Source: Chloroherpetonaceae bacterium
GTDB lineage: Bacteria; Bacteroidota; Chlorobiia; Chlorobiales; Thermochlorobacteraceae
NCBI GenBank assembly: GCA_033763895.1
Contig: JANRJQ010000004.1
Location: 62,001-126,000, forward strand
Direction: 5' to 3'
DNA: 64,000 nt
Part shown: piece after piece, positions 56,331 through 61,614 of the stretch
Layout of the letters: the number at the start of each line of letters is the position of its first letter
Position numbering within the stretch: position 1 is the stretch's first letter
Notes under the pieces: model-generated
Seen by the model: only the letters and a program-made list of their open reading frames with translations
The model's database searches: none
What the model was told of the DNA's origin: nothing
Made by a program: the position numbers and the translations under genes

Positions 56331-57566
56331 TTATTTTGCAAGGACTTCTACTTTTTCATCTTGAAGCGGATTGCCGTTGATTCGGTAATAAGTTTTTAGA
56401 GGAAGGCTATAAATCTTGATGAATCCTTCGCTGGCCTTATGATCAAAAGTATCTTCTTCGGTGTAAGTGGCGAGACTTAAATCATAAAGCGAGTTTTTCG
56501 AATAGCGCCCGGCAATTTCCACATTTCCTTTATAAAGTTTAACCGTTACACTGCCGTTAACTACTTTTTGTGTTTCATTCATAAAAGCAGAAAGTGCAAA
56601 GCGCAAGGGTGAAAACCACAGTCCGTTATAGATTAAATCGGCAAAGTCGTGAGCGAGTTTCAGTTTGTAATGCATTGTGTCTTTATCGAGTGTGAGTCTT
56701 TCCAATTCGCGATGCGCAAAGTGAAGAATCGTAGCTGCGGGTGCTTCATAGATTTCTCTTGACTTAATCCCCACCAATCGATTTTCCACAAGATCAAGAC
56801 GGCCAATTGCATTTGCACCACCAATCGAATTTAGGCGATCGATGAGCACCACTGGGCTGAGCTTTTCACCATTCAATGAAATCGGAATACCGCCTTCAAA
56901 ATCAACGGTTACATATTCAGCTTTATCGGGCGCGTTTTCTGGCGAAACAGTTCGCTGATAAGCTTCAGCCGGTGCTGTTACGCGCGGATCTTCAAGCACA
57001 CCGCACTCAATGCTTGTTCCCCACATATTTTCATCAATCGAAAATGGATTTTCTTTTGTGGCTTTCACAGGTATATTATGCTTCTGAGCATAAGCAATTT
57101 CTTCTTCCCTTGATCGAAATTCCCAATCACGAAGCGGGGCAATAACTTTTACATCAGGAGCAAGTGCCGCAAGTGCTGCTTCAAACCTTACTTGGTCGTT
57201 TCCCTTTCCTGTACATCCGTGGGCAACCATATCACATCCTTCTGCAAGTGCCACTTGTGCTAACCCTTTTGCGAGTAACGGTCTCCCTAATGATGTGGCC
57301 ATCGGATAGGTATGTTCATATAGTGCACCGGCTTTGAGGGTAGGGAAAATAAAATCTGTTGCAAATTCATCTTGAAGGTTAAGCATAAAAGCTTTTTTTG
57401 CGCCAGTCTTATAGGCCTTTTCCTCTACGCCTATCAATTCCTTTTTTTGCCCAAGGTCCCCTGTTACGGTAATGATATCGGCATCATATTTTTCTTGCAA
57501 CCACTTGACCATTACGGAAGTATCAAGACCACCCGAGTAGGCGACGGCGATTTTATGCTTTTTCAT
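56331..57566 (-). CDS. argG: Argininosuccinate synthase
   Basis: Condenses citrulline and aspartate to argininosuccinate with ATP. 411 residues. The ATP pyrophosphatase P-loop is [19 protein letters not shown]; the citrulline/aspartate-binding motifs are [15 protein letters not shown], the Arg/Asn region [18 protein letters not shown] and the C-terminal [14 protein letters not shown]. This belongs to the longer class with an SLYD insertion near the end. The gene is last in the argB-argF-argR-argG group, starting 15 bp after argR. argH is not in the window. Confidence 0.97.
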
Positions 57567-57581
57567 AGTTTCTGTATTGAA

Positions 57582-58055
57582 TTAAGTTAAATTTTCTTTT
57601 GCGTCTTTTCTTGCTTGAGAAACAATTTTTCGGAGCGCTTCTTCTATTTGTTTGGTACGGCGAGTGTTTATTGGTGCAATAAAGATGACATTATCGCCTG
57701 CAAGCGTCGCCATTATGTCTGGCAAACCGATTGAATCCAAAATCTGTGCGACTCCACTCGCCCGGCCCGGCAACGTTTTAACAACAACAAGTGAATCATT
57801 TGATATGATTGATTCAATTTCATAGCTAATCAACATCCGAAGACGTTGATTCTCTCCTTCTGTGTGAAGCACATACCGTGTTCCGACAGCAGTATTCACT
57901 TTTGCGATGCCGAGTTCACGAAGGTCTCGTGAAAGGGTGGCTTGATTAACTTCATACCCCTTTTTTTGCAACGCTACGGCCAATTCCTCTTGATTTGCAA
58001 TGACCTCCGAAGTGATGACTTCTTTAATTGCCAGTTGCCTATCCTGTTTTTCCAT
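57582..58055 (-). CDS. argR: Arginine repressor
   Basis: 157 residues from the ATG at 58055 (MEKQDRQLAIKEVI). The N-terminal winged-helix DNA-binding domain is followed by SRDLRELGIAKV (the ArgR-type recognition helix context QATLSRDLRELG), and the C-terminal arginine-binding domain has VVVKTLPGRASGVAQILDSIGLPDIMATLAGDNVIFI with the conserved GxxxxVAxxLD pattern. ArgR is a hexamer that represses arg genes when arginine is present. It lies between argF and argG, and a paired palindrome upstream of the operon is its likely target. Confidence 0.95.
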   Translation of the reverse strand: MEKQDRQLAIKEVITSEVIANQEELAVALQKKGYEVNQATLSRDLRELGIAKVNTAVGTRYVLHTEGENQRLRMLISYEIESIISNDSLVVVKTLPGRASGVAQILDSIGLPDIMATLAGDNVIFIAPINTRRTKQIEEALRKIVSQARKDAKENLT

Positions 58056-58119
58056 TATGATTTCTCTGAATTCAACATTATGTTTCAACTTCGTTTGAAT
58101 TCTCACACAAAGCGCCTTG

Positions 58120-59037
58120 TCATGTCGCGTAGTATAGCATCGCCATTATTGCTTTCTGAACATGCAATCGGTTTTCAGCTTCCAAAAACACTTCTGAATT
58201 TGATCCATCCAAAACCTCGTCAGTAATTTCTTCGCCTCTCACAGCCGGTAAACAGTGTAAAACGAGGGCGTCTGCCTTGGCATTATTTAATAATTCTTGA
58301 TTGATTTGGTAGGTCGAAAATACCTTTTTTCGAATTTCGGTTTCCTTTTCTTGCCCCATACTAACCCAAACATCTGTATAAAGTGCATCAGCATAGCGAG
58401 CAGCTTGTATTGGATTTTCAATCCACTCAATTTTTCCTTTAGTATTTTTTACCGCGAGATTAAAAAGAGATTGATCTGGCTCGTATCCTTTTGGTGTTGA
58501 GATAACGAAATGAATCGGATAATTCATCGCGAATTCTAACCAAGAATGGACAATGTTATTTCCATCGCCAATAAAAACAATCTTCGAATCGGGCTTTAGT
58601 TTTCCCTTCATTCGAAGGGTAAAAGCATCGGCTAAAACCTGACAAGGATGCGAGAAGTTTGTCAGTGCATTAATTACGGGGATATCCGCCCATTTTGCTA
58701 AGTCAAGGAGCAAATTGTGGTCGAAAAGCCGTGCGATAATTAAATCGTTGTAACGTGAAAGAACTCTCGCGACATCTGCCACACTTTCGCGTGTACCTAA
58801 CCCAACAGATTCTTGACCCAAATAAACAGGATGACCACCAAGTTGAAAAACGCCGACTTCAAAAGAAACGCGGGTTCGGAGTGACGGTTTTTGAAATATC
58901 ATTGCCGCTGTTTTTCCAATTAATGGGCGTTCATTTTTATTGAATTTCAATTCTTCGGCTTTAATGAAAATCTCTTCAATTTTGTTGTAAGATAAATTTT
59001 CAAGTGAAAGCAAGTCATTCATTAATTCATGATTCAT
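58120..59037 (-). CDS. argF: Ornithine carbamoyltransferase
   Basis: Makes citrulline from ornithine and carbamoyl phosphate. 305 residues (an in-frame ATG at 59022 gives 300). The carbamoyl-phosphate-binding motif is KPSLRTRVSFEVGV (SxRTR), then FSHPCQVLADAFTL, and ALVLHCLPAVRGEEI near the C-terminus, all of which are classical OTCase motifs. The HCLP form agrees with ornithine rather than N-acetyl- or N-succinyl-ornithine use. It begins 2 bp after argB ends. Confidence 0.94.
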   Translation of the reverse strand: MNHELMNDLLSLENLSYNKIEEIFIKAEELKFNKNERPLIGKTAAMIFQKPSLRTRVSFEVGVFQLGGHPVYLGQESVGLGTRESVADVARVLSRYNDLIIARLFDHNLLLDLAKWADIPVINALTNFSHPCQVLADAFTLRMKGKLKPDSKIVFIGDGNNIVHSWLEFAMNYPIHFVISTPKGYEPDQSLFNLAVKNTKGKIEWIENPIQAARYADALYTDVWVSMGQEKETEIRKKVFSTYQINQELLNNAKADALVLHCLPAVRGEEITDEVLDGSNSEVFLEAENRLHVQKAIMAMLYYAT

Positions 59038-59039
59038 GA

Positions 59040-59933
59040 TTAAACGGGATAGGAATTTTCTATCTCAATATGAGTATTAAAGGAATTTTTTGGAGCGTTT
59101 TCTCGAATCATTTCAGTTCCAATTCCTTCACTTGTAAATATTTCTAGTAAGAGAGAATGTTTGATTCGACCATCAATAAAGTGAACTTTACCGACTCCGT
59201 TTCGCATTGCCTCAAAAGCTGAATTCACTTTTGGAATCATACCACCGTGAATTTTCCCACCTGCAATTAATTCTTTTGATCTTCCTTCAGAAAGTGAAGA
59301 AATTAGTGCCCCATCAACCATTACACCCTCGGTATCAGAGAGGTAAACGAGTTTTTCGGCATCCAATGCCACAGCAATTGCCGATGCAGCAAGGTCTGCA
59401 TTAATATTATAAGGTTGACCATTCTCTCCTTGCCCAATTGGAGCCACAACAGGAATCATCTCGTTCTTCATTAAAAGCATGAGCAAAGAAACATTCACGG
59501 CAGAAACTTCTCCAACATAGCCTAAATCAATTTCGCTTTGCAATGCCTTTGCCTTTAAAAGTGAGGCGTCCAATCCGGAAAGCCCGATTCCTGCACCACC
59601 ATTGAGTGAAATTAGCCCTGCAATTTCTTTATTTAAAGATGAAAGCCCATAAACCACACACTCAAGCATTTTGGAATCGGTGTAACGCATACCTTCGACA
59701 AACCTTGTTTCTACACCAAAAGCATTTGCAAGCGTTGTAATTTCTTTCCCTCCACCGTGAACGACAACGATATTAATTCCAAGTTTCTTGAGCATCGTAA
59801 CATCTTTAGCAAATGTTCTCATAAGCCCTTCATCGGTCATGACAGCACCACCAAATTTGATGACGAAAATTTTCCCTTCGTAGGTTTGAATGAATGGCAG
59901 GGCCTCAACCAAGACTTCTTCTTTTCTTTGCAT
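59040..59933 (-). CDS. argB: Acetylglutamate kinase
   Basis: Phosphorylates N-acetylglutamate, the committed step of arginine synthesis. 297 residues. The amino-acid-kinase signatures are FVIKFGGAVMTDEGLM, IVVVHGGGKEITTLANAFG, GLSGLDASLLKA and GKIHGGMIPKVNSAFEAM. The N-terminal helix before VIKFGG is of the length seen in arginine-sensitive enzymes, so feedback inhibition is likely. argC and argJ are not adjacent. Confidence 0.95.
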   Translation of the reverse strand: MQRKEEVLVEALPFIQTYEGKIFVIKFGGAVMTDEGLMRTFAKDVTMLKKLGINIVVVHGGGKEITTLANAFGVETRFVEGMRYTDSKMLECVVYGLSSLNKEIAGLISLNGGAGIGLSGLDASLLKAKALQSEIDLGYVGEVSAVNVSLLMLLMKNEMIPVVAPIGQGENGQPYNINADLAASAIAVALDAEKLVYLSDTEGVMVDGALISSLSEGRSKELIAGGKIHGGMIPKVNSAFEAMRNGVGKVHFIDGRIKHSLLLEIFTSEGIGTEMIRENAPKNSFNTHIEIENSYPV

Positions 59934-60535: not shown

Positions 60536-60568
60536 TTATAAAAATATGAATGCAATTATACGGGGAGC

Positions 60569-60602
60569 TGCATAATTATGCAATAATTCGCATAATTATT
60601 TT
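60569..60602 (-). promoter_or_regulatory. Candidate ArgR operator (two ARG-box-like palindromes)
   Basis: TGCATAATTATGCA (60569-60582) is a perfect 14-base palindrome. A related site CGCATAATTATTTT (60589-60602) starts 20 bases away, about two helical turns, which matches the usual paired arrangement of ARG boxes. It lies 34 bp upstream of the GNAT start codon at the head of the cluster that contains argR. The ArgR link is an inference. Confidence 0.55.
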
Positions 60603-60777: not shown

Positions 60778-61614
60778 TCAAAAGCTTGCTTGAAGCCGCA
60801 AATCGAAGCCTCTTGGAATTGGGGCTAATAAAGCCGTATGAGGGACGAATTCAATTTTTTCGATATGAAATCCTGTTTGATTTTCACGATTCCATTCTTT
60901 TGCAAGCCTTACACTATTGATGATACTGATTAACCGATTTAAAGCTAACCCCGCTACAAAATAATAGATATTTTGACCTGCTTCATCAGCATTGATTCTT
61001 TGCGCGCGGTAAAGCGAGCGGTTCTCTTCGCTATTCCAGTCCCAGTTATCTTGCTCGGAGTAACTTCTTCCAAAAAGCCTTTGGCGAGCCATCTCTTCAT
61101 TGTATTCGAGTCTCGAATTATATTGAAGTACATCGTCCCAATATTTGTCGTTTCTTTCACCGGGTAATATTCCTGCGTTGGCTTTCGCAAAGAGTCGTGC
61201 ATCGCTATTGAGTGACGACGCATAAAAAGCGGTTGTGACTAAACCAGCCCACAATAGTGCTTCGGCACCTAAAGAAAATCGTGCATAATCTCCTCTACCC
61301 AATTGTAATTCTCCCAATCCGGGGAGAAGAAAGGACGAAAATCCCGACCAAAAAATCGATCGTTGATTTTTTTCAGGCAATAAAACGGGTTCAACCAGCA
61401 TCAATGAATCATTTCTGCCGCCTAAAGGGATAACCGATATCAATCTATTTTGAGAGGGAGACTTGATTGCATTATTTGAACTTAAAAGCAATGAAGAAAT
61501 TTGATTAGGGTGATACTCTTGGCTGACAAGTATTTCTGAAAAAAGGAATAAGAAAGTAGTAAAAAAAAGAAGACGCATAATCGCGAGCGTTGAATATTTA
61601 TGCAATTTTAGCAA
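60778..61614 (-). CDS. Exported protein of unknown function (DUF5683-like)
   Basis: 278 residues. An N-terminal hydrophobic segment (about 8-30: IMRLLFFTTFLFLFSEILVSQE) is a likely signal peptide. A second hydrophobic stretch (about 115-130) follows the motif FLLPGLGELQLGRGDYARFSLGAEALLWAGL, which resembles the PGxGQxYxG signature of small membrane proteins such as DUF5683. A helical region with WDDVLQYNSRLEYNE and YYFVAGLALNRLISIINSVRLAKEW, and a beta-like end, follow. Alternative starts exist at the second Met, residue 13. No partner is obvious; it stands alone between two intergenic gaps. Confidence 0.65.
   Translation of the reverse strand: MLKLHKYSTLAIMRLLFFTTFLFLFSEILVSQEYHPNQISSLLLSSNNAIKSPSQNRLISVIPLGGRNDSLMLVEPVLLPEKNQRSIFWSGFSSFLLPGLGELQLGRGDYARFSLGAEALLWAGLVTTAFYASSLNSDARLFAKANAGILPGERNDKYWDDVLQYNSRLEYNEEMARQRLFGRSYSEQDNWDWNSEENRSLYRAQRINADEAGQNIYYFVAGLALNRLISIINSVRLAKEWNRENQTGFHIEKIEFVPHTALLAPIPRGFDLRLQASF

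Follow-up and report, generated by a model that had tools for sequence, protein, structure and literature searches.

The window, a 64,000-nucleotide stretch of the genome of a Chloroherpetonaceae bacterium, holds an arginine operon preceded by paired palindromes that resemble ARG boxes (Table 1). The host is related to Candidatus Thermochlorobacter, a bacterium of hot springs, and its family is Candidatus Thermochlorobacteriaceae. The operon lies on the minus strand and is transcribed in the order GNAT-argB-argF-argR-argG. A preliminary description of this DNA had named a GNAT acetyltransferase gene as the first gene past the sites and had seen an argR within the cluster; both statements hold, with the argR score only just above its model cut-off. 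The true start of the GNAT protein is uncertain; relatives begin about 20 residues later. Judged by family models, ArgF is of the ornithine type: the acetylornithine model NF003384 falls below its cut-off.

Table 1. Features of the GNAT-arg operon and its upstream region in the window
Feature	Positions	Strand	Basis
GNAT acetyltransferase gene, XCC2953-like, 180 aa	59993..60535	-	Pfam PF13508/PF00583 over cut-off; 2OZH E 5e-38
argB, acetylglutamate kinase	59040..59933	-	TIGR00761 222 bits, cut-off 151
argF, ornithine carbamoyltransferase	58120..59037	-	TIGR00658 347 bits, cut-off 281
argR, arginine repressor	57582..58106	-	TIGR01529 131.1 bits, cut-off 130.45; both Pfam domains
argG, argininosuccinate synthase	56331..57566	-	TIGR00032 492 bits, cut-off 268
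Promoter-like TTGCAT-N17-TATAAT overlapped by boxes	60555..60583	-	By eye
Central ARG box TGCATAATTATGCA, perfect palindrome	60569..60582	.	12/12 pattern positions; same 14-mer upstream of the GNAT gene in 7/8 relatives
Upstream partner box CGCATAATTATTTT, degenerate, 20 bases off	60589..60602	.	9/12 positions; recovered by genome-wide pair search at 3 mismatches
Possible third, weak box CGTATAATTGCATT (minus-strand reading), 20 bases toward gene	60549..60562	.	7/12 positions

Arginine genes in the family

GNAT is an arginine-operon gene in all 9 family genomes examined, and in all 9 it stands directly before argB. The 8 relatives share the order argC-argJ-GNAT-argB, with these genes as neighbors. 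The window's genome alone among the 9 has argC, argJ, and GNAT-argB scattered; GNAT is still accompanied by argB and the operator. Its argC lies at G000:C14:30750 and its argJ at G000:C11:36992-38146 (502 bits), both away from the window. The earlier remark that no argA or argJ was visible is correct for the ORFs annotated around GNAT and fails for the genome as a whole, and the idea of a missing argJ was rejected on the strength of that locus. The same description had named 2 findings that would together speak against it: an argJ, and another clear substrate for the GNAT protein. Half of this is found, because argJ is present, as it is in all 9 family genomes; no substrate surfaced for the GNAT family.

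Operator and promoter

The ARG-box pattern TGNATWWWWATNCA, with 12 fixed positions, comes from work on E. coli. The central box TGCATAATTATGCA satisfies every fixed position, and the start of CGCATAATTATTTT lies 20 bases from its own, about 2 turns away, so the pair at 60569-60602 is present as first described. The 3.55-Mb genome has a single instance of the strict pair CATAATTAT-N9..13-CATAATTAT (reversed control, 0), and the perfect 14-mer TGCATAATTATGCA likewise has one place there (reversed control, none). The CATAATTAT core alone, with one mismatch allowed, gives 18 matches in the window vs 23.6 expected, which is no enrichment; the signal therefore resides in the perfect palindrome, its spacing, and its conservation. 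A further perfect match, TGAATATTTATGCA, is found at window positions 61591-61604, at the start of ORF 60778-61614; this ORF has no family match, no arg gene adjoins the box, and the match is likely due to chance.

The boxes overlap a promoter-like sequence that agrees by eye with the promoter consensus at 6/6 positions of the -10 and 3/6 of the -35. A promoter scan does not report it, because the -35 reaches only 3/6, and we count this weak match against our explanation. TTGCAT-N17-CATAAT is visible by eye in G003, G005, G007, and G008, and a promoter scan of L033 likewise does not report it. In these 4 genomes and the window's, the central box is flanked on both sides by a weaker box at 20 bases, and TTGCAT-N17-(T/C)ATAAT passes through the boxes (by eye). 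At the offset of the window's partner box the 4 relatives score 9-10/12, and at that of its third box 7-8/12, a level that is frequent by chance. G002, G004, and G006 have a strong pair before argC and a single box, with no evident promoter, before GNAT.

Genus g4 carries a terminator-like hairpin of 11 pairs with a T run in the interval from the boxes to the GNAT start (L033:9145-9172; also L035, L037, and L038). In L037, one stem pair is altered on both sides and the next pair is broken (by eye); the fold z-scores are -2.9 for L033, -3.3 for L035, and -1.1 for L037. An Rfam search of L033 and L037 returned nothing at gathering scores, and the folded window segment has no such hairpin. The element could be an attenuator or the end of a small RNA.

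Distribution of the boxes across the order

The TGCATAATTATGCA 14-mer is present in 1 to 2 copies in each of the 9 family genomes, 12 places in total, and in 0/10 genomes of the order's other families (reversed control, none). Eleven of the 12 places are part of an arg cluster; the last, G002:C3:172503, is upstream of an unrelated ORF. Seven of the 8 relatives have one copy in the gap between argJ and GNAT. In the eighth, G001, the GNAT ATG follows about 4 bases past the argJ stop and the box instead heads the cluster, where it is followed by a Na+/H+ exchanger gene and then argC. This exchanger gene (PF00999; L202:3494-4762) sits between paired ARG boxes and argC.

Perfect boxes also mark arginine clusters outside the family. 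All 10 clusters studied from the order's 3 other families have one before argC, and all 11 of these boxes fall within about 170 bases upstream of that gene. Across 21 stretches (322 kb) chosen around arg genes, 24 of 26 perfect boxes lie at the head of an arg cluster or in the argJ-GNAT gap; the exceptions are one within argJ of G001 and the one at window 61591-61604.

A search of 19 whole genomes for box pairs at 20-base spacing, with up to 3 mismatches, found 23 places, spread over 15 genomes, against a single control place, in G012. Seventeen are at arg operons of the 15 genomes (2 genomes have 2 overlapping places each) and 6 are elsewhere: 4 are the same genus g3 site, a fifth is in G009, and the sixth, G000:C14:180975, is a second pair in the window's genome, where no arg gene adjoins it. 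G011, G013, G015, and G017 have no pair, and each has a single perfect box before argC. The preliminary description had proposed looking for the pair at other arg promoters. It recurs at the arg operons of relatives, at sites that resemble ArgR operators, and does not recur at argC or argJ, the 2 other arg promoters covered in the window's own genome, where the best box within 400 bases scores 9/12, like background.

The genus g3 site (3 genomes; L201:2984-3017, L219:2143-2176, L220:2306-2339, and L221:2245-2278) precedes a conserved ORF of 208-210 aa (MHWMEWNPGLNND...), whose L220 copy has no Pfam match; it is a possible further ArgR target. G006:C10 (L220) and G006:C57 (L221) carry the same stretch, and G006 is listed at 13% contamination; the duplication is probably a doubled or mixed assembly.

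These counts bear on whether the boxes are chance AT-rich palindromes with no regulatory role. The core shows no enrichment in the window, and both the box at 61591-61604 and the pair at G000:C14:180975 lack an adjoining arg gene, as that view would have it. Set against this are the exact conservation upstream of the same gene in 7/8 relatives, the 20-base pairing, and the perfect boxes before argC in every cluster from the other families; chance is a highly improbable explanation. The 2 boxes are almost certainly an ArgR operator, a prediction that is well supported at the level of sequence.

The GNAT protein and its homologues

The protein belongs to the GNAT superfamily by fold and Pfam match. 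Its model (pLDDT 90.6) has a normal GNAT fold and resembles XCC2953 (PDB 2OZH) at 49% identity, Z 22.3, and rmsd 1.1 over 141 residues. Known NAGS structures rank no better against the model than many other GNATs, and this counts against a synthase role; ArgA (5YGE, Z 13.5) ties with many of them, and fold ranking was dropped as evidence for NAGS. Family, structure, and literature searches gave no substrate or function for the XCC2953-type family. The name XCC2953 was not found in the literature searched, and no title or abstract start described this GNAT, NAGS, or ArgR in this group (subscription papers fell mostly outside the scope).

Homologues occur in many phyla: 60/296 genomes of the phylum have one at E 1e-20, 7 of the 60 from this family. 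Within the order, the gene is present in 9/9 family genomes vs 0/52 others. Outside the family, arg genes adjoin homologues at 0/97 loci, which counts against a NAGS role; 74 of these loci had flanks of up to 5 kb (some cut by contig ends) and 23 about 1.5 kb, and the queries were argB, F, R, G, J, and C of the window's genome at E 1e-6, a setting that may overlook distant arg genes. In a tree whose bootstrap had not settled, the family rows group as one clade (support 100/96); a single origin is compatible with this tree and not proved. Values of dN/dS from 0.08 to 0.20 indicate purifying selection and, together with this one clade and the argJ-GNAT-argB order in 8/8 relatives, count for a NAGS role. 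Counting against it, GNAT exceeds argB in dN/dS in 8/8 comparable pairs and is the less constrained of the two (values with dS > 1 approach saturation and are approximate).

In all 9 family genomes the acetyl-CoA loop is R-G-x-D-L-S/A, which departs from the usual motif, Q/R-x-x-G-x-G/A. All family rows (22 rows, 9 genomes) have Asp111 and His49, vs Gly in 93/97 and Tyr in 92/97 homologues; in the remaining 4 homologues the loop Gly is replaced by Asn, Arg, Arg, and Glu. The Asp in all 9 genomes counts in part against a synthase. Because the loop is altered, a regulatory role stays in play: the protein would no longer be an ordinary acetyltransferase and would serve as a dedicated regulator of ArgB or ArgJ, a separate-chain counterpart of the classical NAGS proteins that combine kinase and GNAT. 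Such a role would suit the 2 substitutions, as well as the purifying selection on a gene that directly precedes argB throughout the family. It is harder to reconcile with a normal GNAT fold, with the invariance within the family of Arg108 and of Tyr143, which we take to be the usual catalytic Tyr of GNATs, and with human GNA1, an active GNAT that has Gln at the position of the loop Gly. Since GNA1 has Gln there, this Gly is not essential and activity of the window GNAT is possible; we regard a purely regulatory protein as unlikely.

N-acetylglutamate synthases in the order

Classical ArgA, which joins a kinase to a GNAT domain, is over the TIGR01890 cut-off in 0/19 genomes; in each family genome the best TIGR01890 match is argB, aligned over the kinase part. 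The short NAGS (NF005840) is over cut-off in 48/49 genomes of the sister family f4 (7/7 and 41/42), in 0/9 family genomes, and in 0/3 genomes of f2 and f3. The lack of any ArgA over cut-off and the distribution of the short NAGS between f4 and the family count for the window GNAT as a synthase. The window GNAT matches no NCBIfam NAGS model. Window-type GNAT and short NAGS never co-occur in the 61 genomes searched, and their opposite patterns fit a replacement.

Precedent also counts in favor. Single-domain GNAT NAGS enzymes are known, including ArgO of C. jejuni (PMC4490483), and several unlike proteins are able to make N-acetylglutamate, as described in PMC4490483 and PMC3827942; homology alone therefore misses new ones.

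Two further observations count against the synthase role. Six of the 9 family genomes, the window's included, have other GNAT genes that match the short-NAGS model weakly, below cut-off, and one of these could be the NAGS. In f2 and f3 (3 genomes), argJ is present, no NAGS is over cut-off, and window-type GNAT is absent; because neither enzyme is there, ArgJ alone may suffice. Alternatively, the window GNAT might acetylate another arginine-linked target (a pathway intermediate, a polyamine, or a protein), with acetylglutamate supplied by a bifunctional ArgJ alone or by another GNAT. The argJ of all 9 family genomes and the further GNAT genes among them accord with this, as does the statement in PMC1382215 that bifunctional and monofunctional ArgJ cannot be told apart in silico. 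A gene that lies between argJ and argB and is apparently controlled by arginine fits a biosynthetic step better, and the sister family retains short NAGS in nearly all of its genomes despite having ArgJ; we consider acetylation of another target somewhat unlikely.

A proposed recruited, arginine-controlled acetyltransferase

The explanation that we favor, tentatively and with not quite even confidence, is that GNAT is a recruited N-acetylglutamate synthase under ArgR control. ArgR binding, promoter, and NAGS activity are each predictions; we infer the enzymatic role from context, distribution, and precedent. The boxes would be the ArgR operator for the unit GNAT-argB-argF-argR-argG: arginine-bound ArgR, made from the operon's own gene, would occupy the boxes, spaced at 20 bases, and shut off a promoter that has its -35 and -10 within them, so that the operon would run under arginine shortage. 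In the family's ancestor, probably in a single event, an XCC2953-type single-domain GNAT would have come to lie between argJ and argB. It would make N-acetylglutamate from acetyl-CoA and glutamate, replacing the sister family's short NAGS and priming the cycle that ArgJ then sustains.

In broader terms, the family may have added to its arginine operon a GNAT from a widespread orphan group, placed it under ArgR control, and changed its loop Gly to Asp, to act beside ArgJ as either a new, unrelated NAGS class or a separate protein that regulates acetylglutamate kinase as its partner; for this wider statement we see the chances as evenly balanced. With its settled place between argJ and argB and a predicted ArgR operator ahead of it, this GNAT clearly qualifies as a candidate for an additional class of NAGS. 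That activity, if true, would supply the step that the operon lacks and be the first assigned to the GNAT family, and the Gly-to-Asp change bears on the extent to which a GNAT depends on its acetyl-CoA loop.

Comparison with known systems

The predicted operator resembles that of E. coli ArgR in its pairs of semi-palindromic boxes on one face of the DNA; the promoter elements that the boxes overlap are putative in the window. According to PMC6640053, the E. coli arginine operators overlap the promoter and their 18-base boxes lie 3 bases apart. The 2 systems differ in spacing, 20 bases in the window and 21 bases center to center in E. coli, and in position: the window operator precedes the GNAT gene, which interrupts the argC-argJ-argB order seen in the other families.

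Like the short NAGS (S-NAGS, NF005840/PRK07757), the window protein is a single-domain GNAT of similar size, and the sister family has its short NAGS together with ArgJ. Unlike it, the window GNAT goes unrecognized by the NCBIfam NAGS models, and at the 2 f4 loci viewed, the gene for the short NAGS comes after an ORF for an Obg-like GTPase (by eye) rather than after arg genes. ArgO (O-NAGS) of Campylobacter jejuni is likewise a small GNAT-related NAGS from an arg cluster, a likeness drawn from its description in PMC4490483, where the phrase "argcobd cluster" appears in the title of a quoted reference. The protein XCC2953, an uncharacterised GNAT, shares the fold of the window GNAT and about half of its residues; the window GNAT differs in its Asp111 and His49, its location in an arg operon, and its ArgR boxes.
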